In this document: piece after piece, positions 16,908-25,085 of the stretch
Numbering within the stretch: the first letter of the stretch is position 1
Layout: every line of letters starts with the position of its first letter
Origin: Chroococcidiopsidaceae cyanobacterium CP_BM_ER_R8_30
GTDB taxonomy: Bacteria; Cyanobacteriota; Cyanobacteriia; Cyanobacteriales; Chroococcidiopsidaceae
DNA length: 51,769 nucleotides
NCBI GenBank assembly: GCA_019244235.1
Contig: JAFASY010000171.1
Coordinates: 1-51,769, forward strand
Direction: 5' to 3'
The notes under the pieces: generated by a model
What the model saw: only the letters and a program-made list of their open reading frames with translations
The model's database searches: none
What the model was told of the DNA's origin: nothing
Position numbers and translations under genes: made by a program

Positions 16908-19232
16908 TTGACTAAGACTGAAGCGATGGTCACAACAGTTACTGAAGATAGCTCTTTGATTTCAATTGAAGCTCAGGTAGAAAATATACCTTACCAGGTA
17001 GTTCACTGGGTTCCGGGGCGTTTTCGTATCCGTATACTAAAACTAGCAGATGATCTAGAATATGCCACGAAACTTCAGTACTTAGTAGAATCTATTGATT
17101 TTATTACCAGTGTACGCATCAGTGCAGCGGCTAGGTCAATGATTGTGGAATATCACCACGAAGCCAATGTGGAGGCAATTAAGACATTACAGTCGCAAGT
17201 TTTTGGTGCCATCCAACAGGCATCATTAGCTGGTATTCCCATTTTGCCAACATCTAAAGACAAGACACATAGTCACGAAATTGACTATTGGGAGCGTTTA
17301 GGTCTACCCTCACTTGGTCTAGTTTTAGGACTAGCATCGCTAGTCGGAGTGCCGATTCCAAGTATCGTGATTGCGGCAGTAATCTTTGCTGGCGCTGTAC
17401 CTGTATTCCAGCGGGCACTCGATTCGATTCAACAACAGCGCCAGCTCAACATTGATTTCCTTGATGGTCTAGCAATCAGCCTCCAAACCCTCCAGGGAAA
17501 TTACTTCCCTCCAGCTTTTATGCTAGGTCTGATTGAATCAGGAGAGATAGTTCGCGACCTGACTGCCCGTGGCAGTGAACGTGCATCTCTAGACCTACTC
17601 GATTCACTAGGTAAGTATGCCTTTGTGGAACGAGACGGGCAAGAAGTCAGAATACTGGTTAAAGAGATCGTCGAAGGCGATAAAGTCATTGTTTATCCCG
17701 GCGACTTAATTCCTGTAGATGGTACTATCCTATCTGGGACCGGATTGATAGACCAGCACAAACTTACAGGTGAGTCTGTACCTGTAACCCGATCAGAGGG
17801 TGACGAAGTCTTTGCCTCGACTCTGCTAGTTGATGGTCACCTGTGCATCCATGTTGAGCGGACGGGAAATAATACCCGCGCTGGAGTGATTGTATCGCTG
17901 ATGCAGTCGGCACCTGTGCATGACACTCGGGTAGAAAACTATGCCGCTACAGTGGCTAATCAAGCAGTACTGCCAACGCTTCTGATTGGTAGTGCCGTTT
18001 TTGCATTCACTGGGGACTTGAATCGGGCAACCGCACTGATTACCCTTGACCTGGGGACTGGAATTCGAATTTCCGTGCCAACAACGATTCTGTCAGCTTT
18101 GACCTATGCTGCACGTAACGGCGTCTATATTCGCAGTGGTCGCGCTATCGAAATTCTCTCGCGGGTTGATACCATCGTTTTTGACAAAACAGGTACTCTA
18201 ACTCAGGGTCATGCAGGCATTGTTGACATCAAAACAACTGATGTCGGGGTACCAGCGTTAGAAGTTCTCAGTTTAGCAGCATCAGCTGAACAAGGTCTAA
18301 CTCATCCAGTGGCTGAGGCTATTGTTCGTCAGGCTAAGGAAATTGGTGTTGGGACACTAGAGTGTGAAGCTTGGGAATACCGGGTAGGACTCGGTGTTGT
18401 TGCCACTATCAATGGGCAACAGATTGTGGTTGGCAGTCATCGTCTAATGGGTCTTGAAGGCATTGATTTAACGGCTTTTAACCAACAATATCCTGACATT
18501 AAATCAGGCAGTCATTCGTTAGTCTATGTGGCCGGAAGTGGGCAGTTGTTGGGGGTAATTTTGTACAGTGACCCACCTAGAAAAGAAAGCGCTGGTGTGA
18601 TATCTCAGTTGGGTGCCATGGGCATCACTTCCTACATGCTGAGTGGTGATATTAAGCGAGTTGCAACTGGTGTGGCACACGAACTGGGCATGAATCCTAA
18701 CAATGTTTATGCAGAAGCTTTTCCAGAGCGCAAGGTTGAGGTAGTGAAAGAGCTACATGACAGTGGTAAGACAGTTGCCTTTTGTGGGGACGGGATTAAC
18801 GATTCAGCAGCGCTTGCCTATGCAGATGTATCGATTTCGTTTGCTGGGGCAACGGATGTTGCTCGGGAAACCGCTGATGTGGTGCTAATGGAGAATGACT
18901 TGCGGAGTCTGATTCACGCAATTCATATTGCTAAACAAGCAGTGGAAATAATTTGGCAAAATACAGCTATTGTGGCTGTCCCCAATATAGCTGCTTTAAT
19001 ATCAGGGATTGTCTTTGCTTTAGACCCCGTTGTGGCAGTCGTCATTAACAATGGCACAGCTATCTTGGCAGAGCTAAATGGTTTGCGTCCACTCTTAGGT
19101 ACTGGTAATCAAACCCCATTAGCACTAAGTTCGGCAAGAGACACTTCAACCAGACTCGCCGCGTCAAATGATTCGCACACGCGAGACTATGACAACCCTC
19201 TGGGCTTCTCAGAAGCTGAGCAAGCGGCATAA
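16908..19232 (+). CDS. P-type ATPase with N-terminal HMA2 domain and no CPx motif
   Basis: The 774-residue P1B-like ATPase begins with an HMA2-type domain (about 30-115; VVHWVPGRFRIRI) that lacks the usual CxxC metal site. A membrane hairpin follows (about 135-180), then the actuator domain with TGES (287-290), the phosphorylation motif DKTGTLT with Asp426, and the hinge GDGIND (627-632). The membrane segment before the P domain reads LDLGTGIRISVPTT, so LGT replaces the CPC/SPC metal-binding triplet of heavy-metal pumps. The transported ion, if any, is therefore unlikely to be predicted by P1B rules. It is followed on the same strand by a GTPase gene and a degenerate paralogue. Confidence 0.88.
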   Translation: MTKTEAMVTTVTEDSSLISIEAQVENIPYQVVHWVPGRFRIRILKLADDLEYATKLQYLVESIDFITSVRISAAARSMIVEYHHEANVEAIKTLQSQVFGAIQQASLAGIPILPTSKDKTHSHEIDYWERLGLPSLGLVLGLASLVGVPIPSIVIAAVIFAGAVPVFQRALDSIQQQRQLNIDFLDGLAISLQTLQGNYFPPAFMLGLIESGEIVRDLTARGSERASLDLLDSLGKYAFVERDGQEVRILVKEIVEGDKVIVYPGDLIPVDGTILSGTGLIDQHKLTGESVPVTRSEGDEVFASTLLVDGHLCIHVERTGNNTRAGVIVSLMQSAPVHDTRVENYAATVANQAVLPTLLIGSAVFAFTGDLNRATALITLDLGTGIRISVPTTILSALTYAARNGVYIRSGRAIEILSRVDTIVFDKTGTLTQGHAGIVDIKTTDVGVPALEVLSLAASAEQGLTHPVAEAIVRQAKEIGVGTLECEAWEYRVGLGVVATINGQQIVVGSHRLMGLEGIDLTAFNQQYPDIKSGSHSLVYVAGSGQLLGVILYSDPPRKESAGVISQLGAMGITSYMLSGDIKRVATGVAHELGMNPNNVYAEAFPERKVEVVKELHDSGKTVAFCGDGINDSAALAYADVSISFAGATDVARETADVVLMENDLRSLIHAIHIAKQAVEIIWQNTAIVAVPNIAALISGIVFALDPVVAVVINNGTAILAELNGLRPLLGTGNQTPLALSSARDTSTRLAASNDSHTRDYDNPLGFSEAEQAA

Positions 19233-19553: not shown

Positions 19554-20825
19554 ATGACTAAAACTACAGGGCAAAATCTAACTAACTACTCAGCCTTAGT
19601 TAGGATGCTTTTGGAGCAACTCTCCCATCTTCCACCCTTACTAAGAGAACAGGTAGAGCAAGAATTAAATGAGCTACTCCATTTGCTTGAAGATGTTCGT
19701 CCGCCTCGATTTATGGTTATTGGTAGACGAGGGGCTGGCAAGTCAACTCTTATTAATGCCCTATTCAATGCTCCAGTTGCTAAAGTTGGCGCAGTTGAAG
19801 CACAAACGGGTGAAGCTCACTGGTATGAATATGAACACAATGGTAAAAAAATTGAGATTTTAGACACGCGAGGCATTCAAGAAGGAGGAAAGCCTGTAGA
19901 AGCAGATTCGGCTAAAGACTCTCAGGCAAGTATTCTGCGAGCAGTGCGTCAGAGTTGCCCAGATGTTGTCCTTTTTTTATGCAAAGCCAAAGAAGTAGAC
20001 TCAGCAATTAATGAGTCTCTTGATATTTTTGAGAGAATATTACAGGAAATTGAAAGTATTCATAACTATAATCCACCGATTGTTGGTATCCTCACACAAT
20101 GTGATGAACTTGACCCACCAGATATTCGTAAGCTACCAACTGATGATGAGGAAAAAAATCAAAATATCAGCACCGCGGTGAGGGTGTTGGCAGAACATCT
20201 AAATTCTAGAAAAACTCTGAATGATAAGTTGATAGAGGTTGTGCCTACTGTAGCGTTCGTTCGTTACGATGCAGACGGCAGATTTGATACAAAGCGGGAC
20301 TTCCGTTGGAATATCGATCGTCTTACTGAACTTCTAGTTGAAGAATTACCTAAGGGACCTAATCTTGCCTTTGCTCGTATTGCCAGCGTTCGTAAATTCC
20401 AACACAAAGTAGCAAACAATATTATCAATGTCTGTAGTATTGCCTGTGGTGCCGTTGGTGCTTCACCAATTCCTTGCGATGACTTACCAGTTATAACGGC
20501 TATTCAGGCAGCGATGATTATTGCAATTGCTTACATTGGGGGGCGGGAGCTGTCATTTCAAACTGTTCCAGAATTTTTGACAGCACTTGGTGTTAACGTG
20601 GGAGCCGCATTTGCACTGCGGGAGGTTGCTAGAGGTTTAGTGAAGCTCATCCCTGGTTTCGGAATTGTTATTTCGGCTGGGGTTGCCAGTACGGGGACTC
20701 AAGCAATCGGTCAAGCGGCAATAGCTTATTTTATTGATGGGACTCCTGTGAAATCAATATTAGAAACAGAGGAATACACAACTTTAAAACCAATGCTCTC
20801 CCCATTGTCTAGCTACTCTCAATGA
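19554..20825 (+). CDS. Dynamin/Era-like GTPase with C-terminal DUF697 domain
   Basis: The 423-residue protein has a GTPase domain. P-loop GRRGAGKSTLINALF is at about 58-72, the switch-II region ILDTRGIQEGG gives the G3 motif, and LTQCDE gives a G4-like motif. The C-terminal half has a DUF697-like hydrophobic region (about 290-400) with GASPIPCDDLPVITAIQAAMIIAIAYIGG and glycine-rich helices, suggesting membrane association. YcjF/DUF697 GTPases are generally of unknown role. It lies between the active-looking ATPase (320 bases upstream) and its dead paralogue (24 bases downstream), so it is likely to act with them. Confidence 0.85.
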   Translation: MTKTTGQNLTNYSALVRMLLEQLSHLPPLLREQVEQELNELLHLLEDVRPPRFMVIGRRGAGKSTLINALFNAPVAKVGAVEAQTGEAHWYEYEHNGKKIEILDTRGIQEGGKPVEADSAKDSQASILRAVRQSCPDVVLFLCKAKEVDSAINESLDIFERILQEIESIHNYNPPIVGILTQCDELDPPDIRKLPTDDEEKNQNISTAVRVLAEHLNSRKTLNDKLIEVVPTVAFVRYDADGRFDTKRDFRWNIDRLTELLVEELPKGPNLAFARIASVRKFQHKVANNIINVCSIACGAVGASPIPCDDLPVITAIQAAMIIAIAYIGGRELSFQTVPEFLTALGVNVGAAFALREVARGLVKLIPGFGIVISAGVASTGTQAIGQAAIAYFIDGTPVKSILETEEYTTLKPMLSPLSSYSQ

Positions 20826-20849: not shown

Positions 20850-22358
20850 ATGAGCTACCAAGTTATTCACTCCAGTTTAGGACGTTACCGAATTCGTGTC
20901 CCCCAAGTGGCAATTGATTCAGAATACGCTACTAAAATTTATTGGTTAGTTAAGTCTCTTGATTTTGTTACTGGTGTTCGTATTAATCCCGTAGCTAGTT
21001 CGGTTATTGTTAACTACGACGCGGATGTTGTTTCAACTGCCGTAGCACAGGAAAATGTTATTAATTGTATCCAGCAGGCAAATAGCGCGGAAATTCCCGT
21101 AGCGCTGGCAACTATAGAACAGGAAGTCCCACAAGTTGATGCTTGGGAACGTTTAAGTCTACCTATTCTGAGTCTGGGCGCGGCTCTACTTGCTGGTCCA
21201 TTTGAGCTGTCAATTCCGTTTCTACTGATAGGCGGACTTATTGCTAGTGCAGCTGTGCCCGTTTTTAACCGGGCGATCGCTGGTCTTGTTGACGAGCGCA
21301 AATTCAAGGTTGATGTCCTTGACTCACTGTGGATTACCCTCCAGACTCTACAGGGGCAATATCTGGCGGCGGCACTCATGATTAACTTGGCACAAACGGG
21401 TGCGACCGTGCGTGATATGTCGGCAATTGCTGACCAACGGCAGTTGATAGAACTGCTGGATTCGCCAAACCGCCAGGTTGAACAAGATGAGACACAAAGG
21501 TCATGCCAGTCTGAAGATAAACCAGGACCTGCTACCAACACTCAAATAGGAGACTACATAGAAGAGGTTTCAGACAAACTTGTCGTGCCAACTCTATTAG
21601 TCTCTGGTGGCATTTTCGCTCTAACTGGAAACCTCTCGCCAGCTCTAGCACCACTTCAGCTTGATTTTGGAACTGGTATTGGCATAGCTGTACCGACTAC
21701 TATTCATGCTGCCTTGACCTATGCTGCTCGTAGCAATGTATATATCCGTAGTGGTCGGGCTCTGGAAGTCCTATCCTGTACTGATACTGTTATTTTTGGC
21801 TTGAACAGTTCTTTAACCCAAGAGATTGCCAACAGCGCCAGCCGCACTCTGACTTCTCAGGGGATAAGCTCTTATATGCTGACTAATGACAACCAGCAAG
21901 CGGTGAATGAGGTAGTTCGTGGGCTACACAAAGATGGTAGGGTTGTGGCATACGTCAGCTCTGGATCTAGTGACACTTCGATTGCCAATGAGGTAGATGT
22001 CTCTGTTTGCTTGGCTAAGGAAACTGAGGATATTAAAGGGTTTTCAGCCGATATTGTACTTATCGGTGATGACTTGAGTCAGCTAGTGTATGCAATCGAC
22101 ATTGCCAAACACGCAATGAAAATTGTTTATCAAAATGTCGCCATCGTTGCTATTCCTAATATCAGTGTGGCGATCGCAGGGGTTTTCTTTGGTTTACATC
22201 CAGTTTGGGCAGTACTGATCAATAACTGTGCAGCATTTATTGCTGAATTGAATGGCTGGTCCCCGCTTTTAGGTTCTGATAATCCACCGTGGGCAATCCC
22301 AGATTTTGGGAAACCTGCTGACGAAGAGGGTCCAGCTATACTCCTTGCCCCCTCATAA
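20850..22358 (+). CDS. Degenerate P-type ATPase paralogue with HMA2 domain (pseudoenzyme)
   Basis: The 502-residue protein is collinear with the 774-residue ATPase upstream but shortened. The HMA2 domain (1-80; VIHSSLGRYRIRV), the first membrane region (about 98-145, VDVLDSLWITLQTLQG), the DFGTGIGIAVPTT membrane helix and the C-terminal membrane pair (VAIVAIPNISVAIAGVFF, WAVLINNCAAFIAELNGW) all align. The actuator domain with TGES is absent. DKTGTLT is replaced by FGLNSSLT (Gly317 at the Asp position), most of the nucleotide-binding domain is gone, and GDGIND is replaced by SGSSDT. The reading frame is long and clean, so it looks maintained rather than decaying. It may be a regulatory or structural partner of the active ATPase. 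Confidence 0.85.
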   Translation: MSYQVIHSSLGRYRIRVPQVAIDSEYATKIYWLVKSLDFVTGVRINPVASSVIVNYDADVVSTAVAQENVINCIQQANSAEIPVALATIEQEVPQVDAWERLSLPILSLGAALLAGPFELSIPFLLIGGLIASAAVPVFNRAIAGLVDERKFKVDVLDSLWITLQTLQGQYLAAALMINLAQTGATVRDMSAIADQRQLIELLDSPNRQVEQDETQRSCQSEDKPGPATNTQIGDYIEEVSDKLVVPTLLVSGGIFALTGNLSPALAPLQLDFGTGIGIAVPTTIHAALTYAARSNVYIRSGRALEVLSCTDTVIFGLNSSLTQEIANSASRTLTSQGISSYMLTNDNQQAVNEVVRGLHKDGRVVAYVSSGSSDTSIANEVDVSVCLAKETEDIKGFSADIVLIGDDLSQLVYAIDIAKHAMKIVYQNVAIVAIPNISVAIAGVFFGLHPVWAVLINNCAAFIAELNGWSPLLGSDNPPWAIPDFGKPADEEGPAILLAPS

Positions 22359-24758: not shown

Positions 24759-25085
24759 TTACTCGATCGTTACCCCTTGGGGAGGTGTGTGAGGAGTTTT
24801 AGTCTTGGCAGTTGCACGGTCAGCTCTAGCCTCAGCAACCAGATCCTGGAAGGACTCCCCTGCTTCAGCAACAACGCCTTGCGTCTTGTCTAAAATATCC
24901 ATCCCCCAGATTATGCCAGCCTTTGCCAGGTTTCTACTCGATTCCGATAAAGATTCGCCCACTGCTGTGTCTTTTCCCGCCAAAGTACCTGCCGCACCGA
25001 GAATAGGTGCGACCACTACTGCGCCAGCAACAACTGCTAACGCAGTCAACGGCTGTTCAAAGAATAAAAGCTCAAGAATTTCCAT
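24759..25085 (-). CDS. DUF5132-like small membrane protein
   Basis: The 108-residue protein has one hydrophobic segment (about 10-36; LTALAVVAGAVVVAPILGAAG), then an amphipathic helical region with GESLSESSRNLAKAGIIWGMDILDKTQGVVAEAGESFQDLVAEAR. The layout matches the DUF5132 family, small proteins often encoded beside HMA2-domain ATPases. The function is unknown. It is followed by a clear terminator. Its position between the ATPase cluster and the further HMA2 gene suggests membership of the same module; the family match is from memory of the pattern. Confidence 0.7.
   Translation of the reverse strand: MEILELLFFEQPLTALAVVAGAVVVAPILGAAGTLAGKDTAVGESLSESSRNLAKAGIIWGMDILDKTQGVVAEAGESFQDLVAEARADRATAKTKTPHTPPQGVTIE

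Follow-up and report, generated by a model that had tools for sequence, protein, structure and literature searches.

The window (the whole analysed stretch of 51,769 nucleotides) encodes a 502-residue paralogue of P-type ATPases, here termed the pseudo-pump, which has lost its catalytic motifs and belongs to a family more general than the window showed: maintained by selection, cyanobacterial and tied to one pump clade. We judge it, at a probability of roughly 0.6, to act as a conserved partner, itself non-catalytic, of an active HMA2-type (type-1) pump, here the adjacent 774-residue protein (Table 1). The most fitting place for the family is a new pseudoenzyme branch within the HMA2-type ATPases. 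To our knowledge, no bacterial family of P-type ATPases that is conserved though catalytically dead has been described, and literature phrase searches on inactive or degenerate P-type ATPases, DUF5132 and PF19991 found no papers.

Table 1. Features of the window, with the domains of the pseudo-pump.
Feature	Position	Strand	Basis and remarks
Active type-1 HMA2 P1B-like ATPase, 774 aa, presumed partner	16908–19232	+	TIGR01525 475 bits; type-1 clade
Terminator-like stem-loop	19392–19434	+	Consensus match only; between active ATPase and GTPase/pseudo-pump pair
Era-like GTPase	19554–20825	+	Weak DUF697 similarity; ends 24 nt upstream of pseudo-pump
Pseudo-pump (non-catalytic P-type ATPase paralogue), 502 aa	20850–22358	+	Intact ORF, motif losses, relatives, tree, dN/dS
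HMA_2-like N-terminal domain, residues 4–79	20859–21086	+	Pfam 29.7 bits; predicted ferredoxin-like strands and helices
Membrane helices MA, MB, M1, M2, residues 98–203	21141–21458	+	AlphaFold2, pLDDT mostly 84–92
Disordered linker, residues 205–227, at expected place of A domain/TGES	21462–21530	+	pLDDT <50
Membrane helices M3–M4 with invariant Asp272 (codon 21663–21665)	21543–21731	+	AlphaFold2, residue conservation
P-domain Rossmann core, residues 297–405, with Gly317 and SSGSSD, without N domain	21738–22064	+	Alignment, AlphaFold2
Membrane helices M5–M6 with invariant Asn437, Asn458	22077–22259	+	AlphaFold2, residue conservation
DUF5132 protein	24759–25085	−	Pfam PF17195 25.6 bits, cut-off 25; found repeatedly near these ATPases
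HMA_2-only membrane-type protein, 178 aa	25760–26296	+	Pfam HMA_2 52.3 bits

Loss of the catalytic machinery

The frame of the pseudo-pump starts with ATG and runs through its 502 codons with zero stops or shifts, as the preliminary description had it, and the protein aligns to the 774-residue ATPase at 47% identity. The latter holds its TGES, DKTGTLT and GDGIND motifs intact. In the pseudo-pump, TGES and the core of the A domain are missing (21% of the A-domain columns filled in the alignment), the N domain is reduced to 7% of its columns, and Gly317 (GGC, 21798–21800) occupies the site of the phosphorylated Asp, in VIFGLNSSLT as against IVFDKTGTLT of the ATPase. These losses had all been noted beforehand and the alignment confirms them. 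The loss of GDGIND likewise stands, but its replacement, given earlier as SGSSDT, had been read one residue off and is SSGSSD (residues 370–375, 21957–21974).

HMA_2 (PF19991) was the sole Pfam family seen in the protein (E 7e-7; 29.7 bits where the cut-off is 30, a threshold that relatives mostly pass); Pfam E1-E2_ATPase and Hydrolase gave no match to it, and its score to TIGR01525 in NCBIfam (75.6 bits) lies far below the family cut-off of 346. An AlphaFold2 model (input alignment of 19 sequences, mean pLDDT 77.8, pTM 0.67) has an HMA-like fold (residues 4–76) and eight helices, congruent with the earlier claim that the HMA2 domain and all membrane helices are kept. The P domain, by contrast, is not shortened as had been thought: its core is complete in the model, and it is the N and A domains that are gone. 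The best match among solved structures is CopA (7r0g; Z 29.7, 3.4 Å over 368 residues, VIA-align), and a distant 471-residue relative is predicted to adopt a similar layout.

Compared with P1B-type ATPases (TIGR01525; CopA 7r0g, ZntA 4umw, HMA4 8q74), the pseudo-pump shares the eight-helix membrane domain and the P-core, with MA/MB, the six-helix core and the P-domain fold all present in the model, whereas their phosphorylated Asp, DKTGT(L)T, TGE(S), GDGxND and N domain are all missing. Their CPC is replaced by FG[ST], as it is in many active HMA2 relatives. Alignment, profile and model results thus point to a protein that has lost its engine but kept the membrane part and P-core. Judged by sequence and model, it should neither bind ATP normally nor form an aspartyl-phosphate, and would hence be unable to pump. 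Homologous to an enzyme, deprived of the catalytic residues and maintained by selection, it is a pseudoenzyme.

Dead copies in the same genome and in other cyanobacteria

Two more paralogues with Gly at the catalytic position are encoded in the genome of the window. The 628-residue copy, on contig C154, reads VFGITSTLT, retains TGES and has lost the N domain; it follows 121 nt behind an active 916-residue ATPase. The 750-residue copy, on contig C139, is full length with all domains present and carries VIFGKTGTLT, TGEI and HGLSD. Genes for a DUF1345 protein, an Nramp transporter and a beta-carbonic anhydrase lie directly downstream of the 628-residue dead pump (L009 12783–15847), and fragments of one or more additional HMA2-type ATPases stand at the ends of contigs C91 and C321 (L011 3574–4221; L047).

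A first contig scan with a single protein query gave no match. Searches of 40 genomes of relatives and of 293 genomes order-wide then found dead copies in other families, and a class-wide search of 390 genomes added more; carriers named by contig search include Phormidium sp. LEGE 05292, Hydrococcus, Aphanocapsa, Thermosynechococcus MAGs and a Gloeomargaritales genome. These non-catalytic relatives, 411 to 838 residues long, are spread over many families of cyanobacteria. The position of the catalytic Asp is taken by Gly, Thr, His, Ala or Glu in various members, and where Asp is retained its context is broken (DRTGT, DQTGLLD, DSSSLLI, DHAELID). Least degraded of all are the DRTGT members of genus g2, for which some residual activity is conceivable; the smallest copy, of 411 residues, has hardly more left than the HMA domain and the membrane helices. 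Homologues sharing the G-L-N-S substitution, which the preliminary description had proposed to look for, were not among them: this change is private to the window gene, and the motif is replaced differently in other members.

Dead pumps of 811–838 residues (L082 3635–6148, L083 10978–13410, −) lie near active pumps and DUF5132 genes; they have Glu at the Asp position and unrecognisable TGES and GDGxND, and their placement is uncertain because of long branches. In genus g2, a conserved 137-residue ORF, for which no Pfam match was found, sits between the type-1 and the dead ATPase (L040 6704–7117, also L038 and L039). A match on a plasmid of Gloeothece PCC 7822 was rejected as a dead relative, being an active ATPase with DKTGTLT, and frames of 582 residues in G012 and 566 residues in G268, which keep DKTGT and/or TGES and look truncated, were left uncounted.

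Phylogeny, order of losses and selection

A tree of 505 columns common to dead and active copies, with the catalytic motifs left out, resolves three groups. Type 1 (about 770–990 residues, motifs intact) includes the 774-residue ATPase of the window, type 2 (about 755–790 residues) mostly combines DKTGT with GEGIND, and type 3, sister to the active pumps, is the dead lineage, a single clade with most of the non-catalytic relatives. Support for a ten-row core of type 3 is 100/100. The 502- and 750-residue proteins of the window's genome are sisters (100/99) and probably join this core as a pair (88/87 on the tree without long branches); the whole set with all very divergent dead copies reaches 99/97, a value to be read with a long-branch warning. 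On the cleaner tree, the one without long branches, DKTGT is lost once, with 3 changes for the Asp, 3 for the N domain, 2 for the A domain and 5 for TGE. Since DKTGT was lost once and the other losses are repeated, inactivation most likely came first, followed by independent stripping of the useless domains.

The relatives of the pseudo-pump are under purifying selection. Scripted NG86 estimates gave dN/dS of 0.13–0.37 for dead relatives versus 0.06–0.16 for active copies. Dead copies of genus g63 reach 0.24–0.37 at dS of about 0.1, the active copies of the same genomes 0.06–0.11, and further type-3 values are 0.13–0.30 in g2 and 0.15 in f48. The window's 502-residue gene compared with the 750-residue paralogue yields about 0.29 at dS 1.4; because neither has close relatives, the case for selection on these two rests on a divergent within-genome pair. 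Were the window gene neutral, about 11–12 stops would be expected on its own branch (probability of none about 1e-5).

His7, Arg12 and Arg14 of the HMA domain, which is without CxxC, as well as Pro247, Asp272, Asn437 and Asn458, are conserved in practically every dead copy that was aligned, distant ones included, while the positions of Asp317 and of the GDGxND Asn vary among them. Asp272 directly precedes the CPC position, where FG[ST] stands in many of these pumps, and may line a cation site.

Dependence on the type-1 pump

Dead pumps are preserved almost only in genomes with a type-1 pump. All 17 searched genomes with an intact dead copy also encode an HMA2-type ATPase 59–73% identical to the 774-residue protein of the window. 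When a close type-1 pump was defined by at least 56% identity to that protein (14 of the 293 genomes of the order), an unbiased search found intact dead copies in 11 of these 14 genomes, versus 0 of the 279 without such a pump. Fisher's test for the co-occurrence gives 1e-17 by genomes and 3e-7 by genera, uncorrected for relatedness, and as the genomes are kin the genome counts are not independent. A targeted look added a 411-residue dead copy in G272, the twelfth of the 14; since it was found only in this manner, the first search missed divergent copies, and its absence calls are those of one query with few candidates scored per genome.

Genus g63 offers a comparison among 12 genomes: an intact dead copy is present in 4 of 4 with a type-1 pump and in 0 of 8 without, and pump and dead copy lie on different contigs. 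Two of the genomes without the pump hold ruined dead copies, differently broken. In one, the frame is broken and also interrupted by an in-frame stop. The second copy is divided at about codon 187 between two contig ends, and these bear inverted GGAAGTCCCT/AGGGACTTCC sequence of the kind expected from an insertion element. In the remaining six no dead copy was found. If the dead copy depends on the pump, genomes devoid of the pump should show such dissimilar damage, and the dependence of the pseudo-pump on the type-1 pump is well supported.

Recurring neighbours and calcyanin

In most loci an active HMA2-type pump lies within about 12 kb of the dead copy, and in G151 the two genes overlap by 37 nt; copies unlinked to any active pump are those on C139 of the window's genome, in G299, in G306 and in one genus. 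DUF5132 proteins are found in 11 of 26 loci. Further recurring companions are HMA2 proteins and Na/Ca-exchanger-type antiporters, genes of the latter adjoining type-1 or dead pumps in six loci, and DUF1345, MntP-like and ArsA-like genes also occur at some. Within the window, the GTPase and the pseudo-pump are probably co-transcribed. The expectation that the gene would recur beside both an ATPase and the GTPase in other cyanobacteria holds for the active ATPase, but no gene similar to the GTPase was found in the 25 other loci, and the GTPase was therefore rejected as a member of a conserved module.

One locus, in G272 (contig C121; L186 10163–12654, −), has a calcyanin-like gene, a DUF5132 gene and the 411-residue dead pump following one another on the same strand at distances of 111 and 86 nt, an apparent operon. 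The first of these encodes an HMA_2 domain followed by glycine-zipper repeats, which we take to be the architecture of calcyanin. Calcyanin-like genes were found in 7 of the 293 genomes of the order, and 7 of 7 have a dead pump; without the targeted find in G272 it is 6 of 7 (Fisher 4e-9 by genomes, 0.004 by genera). G299 and G306, from other orders, also combine both, in g63 a calcyanin-like gene overlaps a Na/Ca-exchanger-type gene, and a PEGL-type Ca-ATPase-like gene lies 1.4 kb from one of the type-1 or dead pumps. The calcyanin search gave no match in the window's genome, nor in several other carriers, and the dead pump is thus not a calcification gene as such. We regard the common calcium theme as a lead, not a result. 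In cyanobacteria, the calcyanin gene ccyA has been linked to amorphous calcium carbonate inside the cells (PMC12836880, PMC11773610), and P-type calcium transporters were reported not to be found systematically in this intracellular calcification (PMC11773610); the link would offer candidate membrane transporters for the process.

Proposed role and alternative explanations

For the pseudo-pump and the type-1 pump we infer a physical association, along with the binding of a cation, the direction of regulation and the ion concerned. The pseudo-pump would be embedded beside the active pump, docking through membrane and P-core surfaces, and its basic HMA domain would attach it to anionic lipid or to a companion protein. 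It may bind or sense the same cation as the pump and could thereby tune or organise it. P-type ATPases associate through HAD-domain surfaces in the MgtA homodimer (PMC10925321), although there the subunits are active and the interface includes the N domain, which the pseudo-pump lacks. A non-catalytic membrane partner is exemplified by PacL1, encoded with the P1B-like ATPase CtpC in Mycobacterium tuberculosis and needed for CtpC abundance (PMC9374683), and the DUF5132 neighbours here recall, as far as arrangement goes, such PacL1/DUF1490 metal efflux platforms. PacL, however, is a small single-helix protein and no pump paralogue, and for the pseudo-pump the link to its pump is one of genomic co-occurrence. 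The basic HMA-like domains of calcyanin, called CoBaHMA, and Pfam HMA_2 share with the pseudo-pump the conserved His/Arg pattern HxxxGRxRxR and the lack of CxxC; in the pseudo-pump, unlike in calcyanin, the domain is fused to a dead pump.

Alternatively, the membrane domain might work without the pump as a cation channel, sensor or buffer, with the co-occurrence reflecting a common ion. Such a free-standing function would agree with the intramembrane residues kept without an engine, with the unlinked copies and with a 411-residue form reduced to little more than HMA domain and membrane helices, yet it is made unlikely by the almost complete dependence on a single pump clade and by the ruined copies in genomes that lack the type-1 pump. 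Somewhat less likely still is a calcium-handling system including intracellular amorphous carbonate, where dead and type-1 pumps would load a compartment with calcium alongside calcyanin, CAX antiporters and DUF5132. The dead pump in every calcyanin-like genome found in the order, the gene row of G272, the six loci with Na/Ca-exchanger genes and the nearby PEGL-type gene speak for it; against these stand the carriers without a calcyanin match, the window's genome among them, and the few and related lineages concerned.

The dead copies evolve faster than the active ones and are broken in two genomes, as could be expected of a duplicate in decay that arose by in-frame deletion and is still free of stops. 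We nonetheless hold this to be very improbable, given frames intact across many families with dN/dS below 1, invariant non-catalytic residues and about 11 stops expected under neutrality; on the grounds of dN/dS, invariant residues and stop expectation, the recent-deletion and pseudogene readings were rejected for the family. The preliminary description had named two outcomes that would speak against its proposal, that no other genome has such a gene or that the copy is a recent deletion. Neither occurred, relatives being present in many families, and its interpretation is supported in part: the view of a maintained pseudoenzyme is upheld by dN/dS well below 1 and the dependence on a specific active pump, while a scaffold or dominant regulator, as it suggested, is a candidate role.

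If the dead copies are indeed pump partners, P-type ATPases would be added to the kinases and proteases as enzymes regulated by dead paralogues, and the idea of heteromeric P1B-like pumps could be put to the test. A wider proposal, which we offer tentatively and consider rather doubtful, has the family as obligatory partners of one pump clade, the pair acting in calcium machinery and being combined with calcyanin for intracellular carbonate in calcifying lineages; the dead pump would then serve in the membrane as a subunit that binds a cation and tunes or localises its active partner.

Variant ATPases and further HMA_2 proteins

In most of the type-2 clade (pumps L103, L104, L107–L110), the GDGIND motif reads GEGIND, with Glu instead of Asp at a catalytic site. 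Matches from Methylococcaceae (L126 5878–7953, L127 5899–7953) were set aside as a different case; these ATPases keep DKTGT and GDGIND but show FGG in the place of TGE(S) and are possibly impaired. Cyanobacterial-looking ATPase contigs in bins named Clostridia and Gracilibacteria (L114, L118) are probably misbinned. At L180 (6581–8705, −), L181 and L182, a 349-residue calcyanin-like gene overlapping a Na/Ca-exchanger-type gene has HMA2 proteins nearby, with a DUF5132 gene in 2 of the 3 loci. The HMA_2 domain is also fused to a diacylglycerol-kinase/YegS-type lipid kinase on contig C186 of the window's genome (L013 3133–4644), and stands at the N-terminus of an EcsC-family protein near an ATPase cluster (L073 2374–3558, −).
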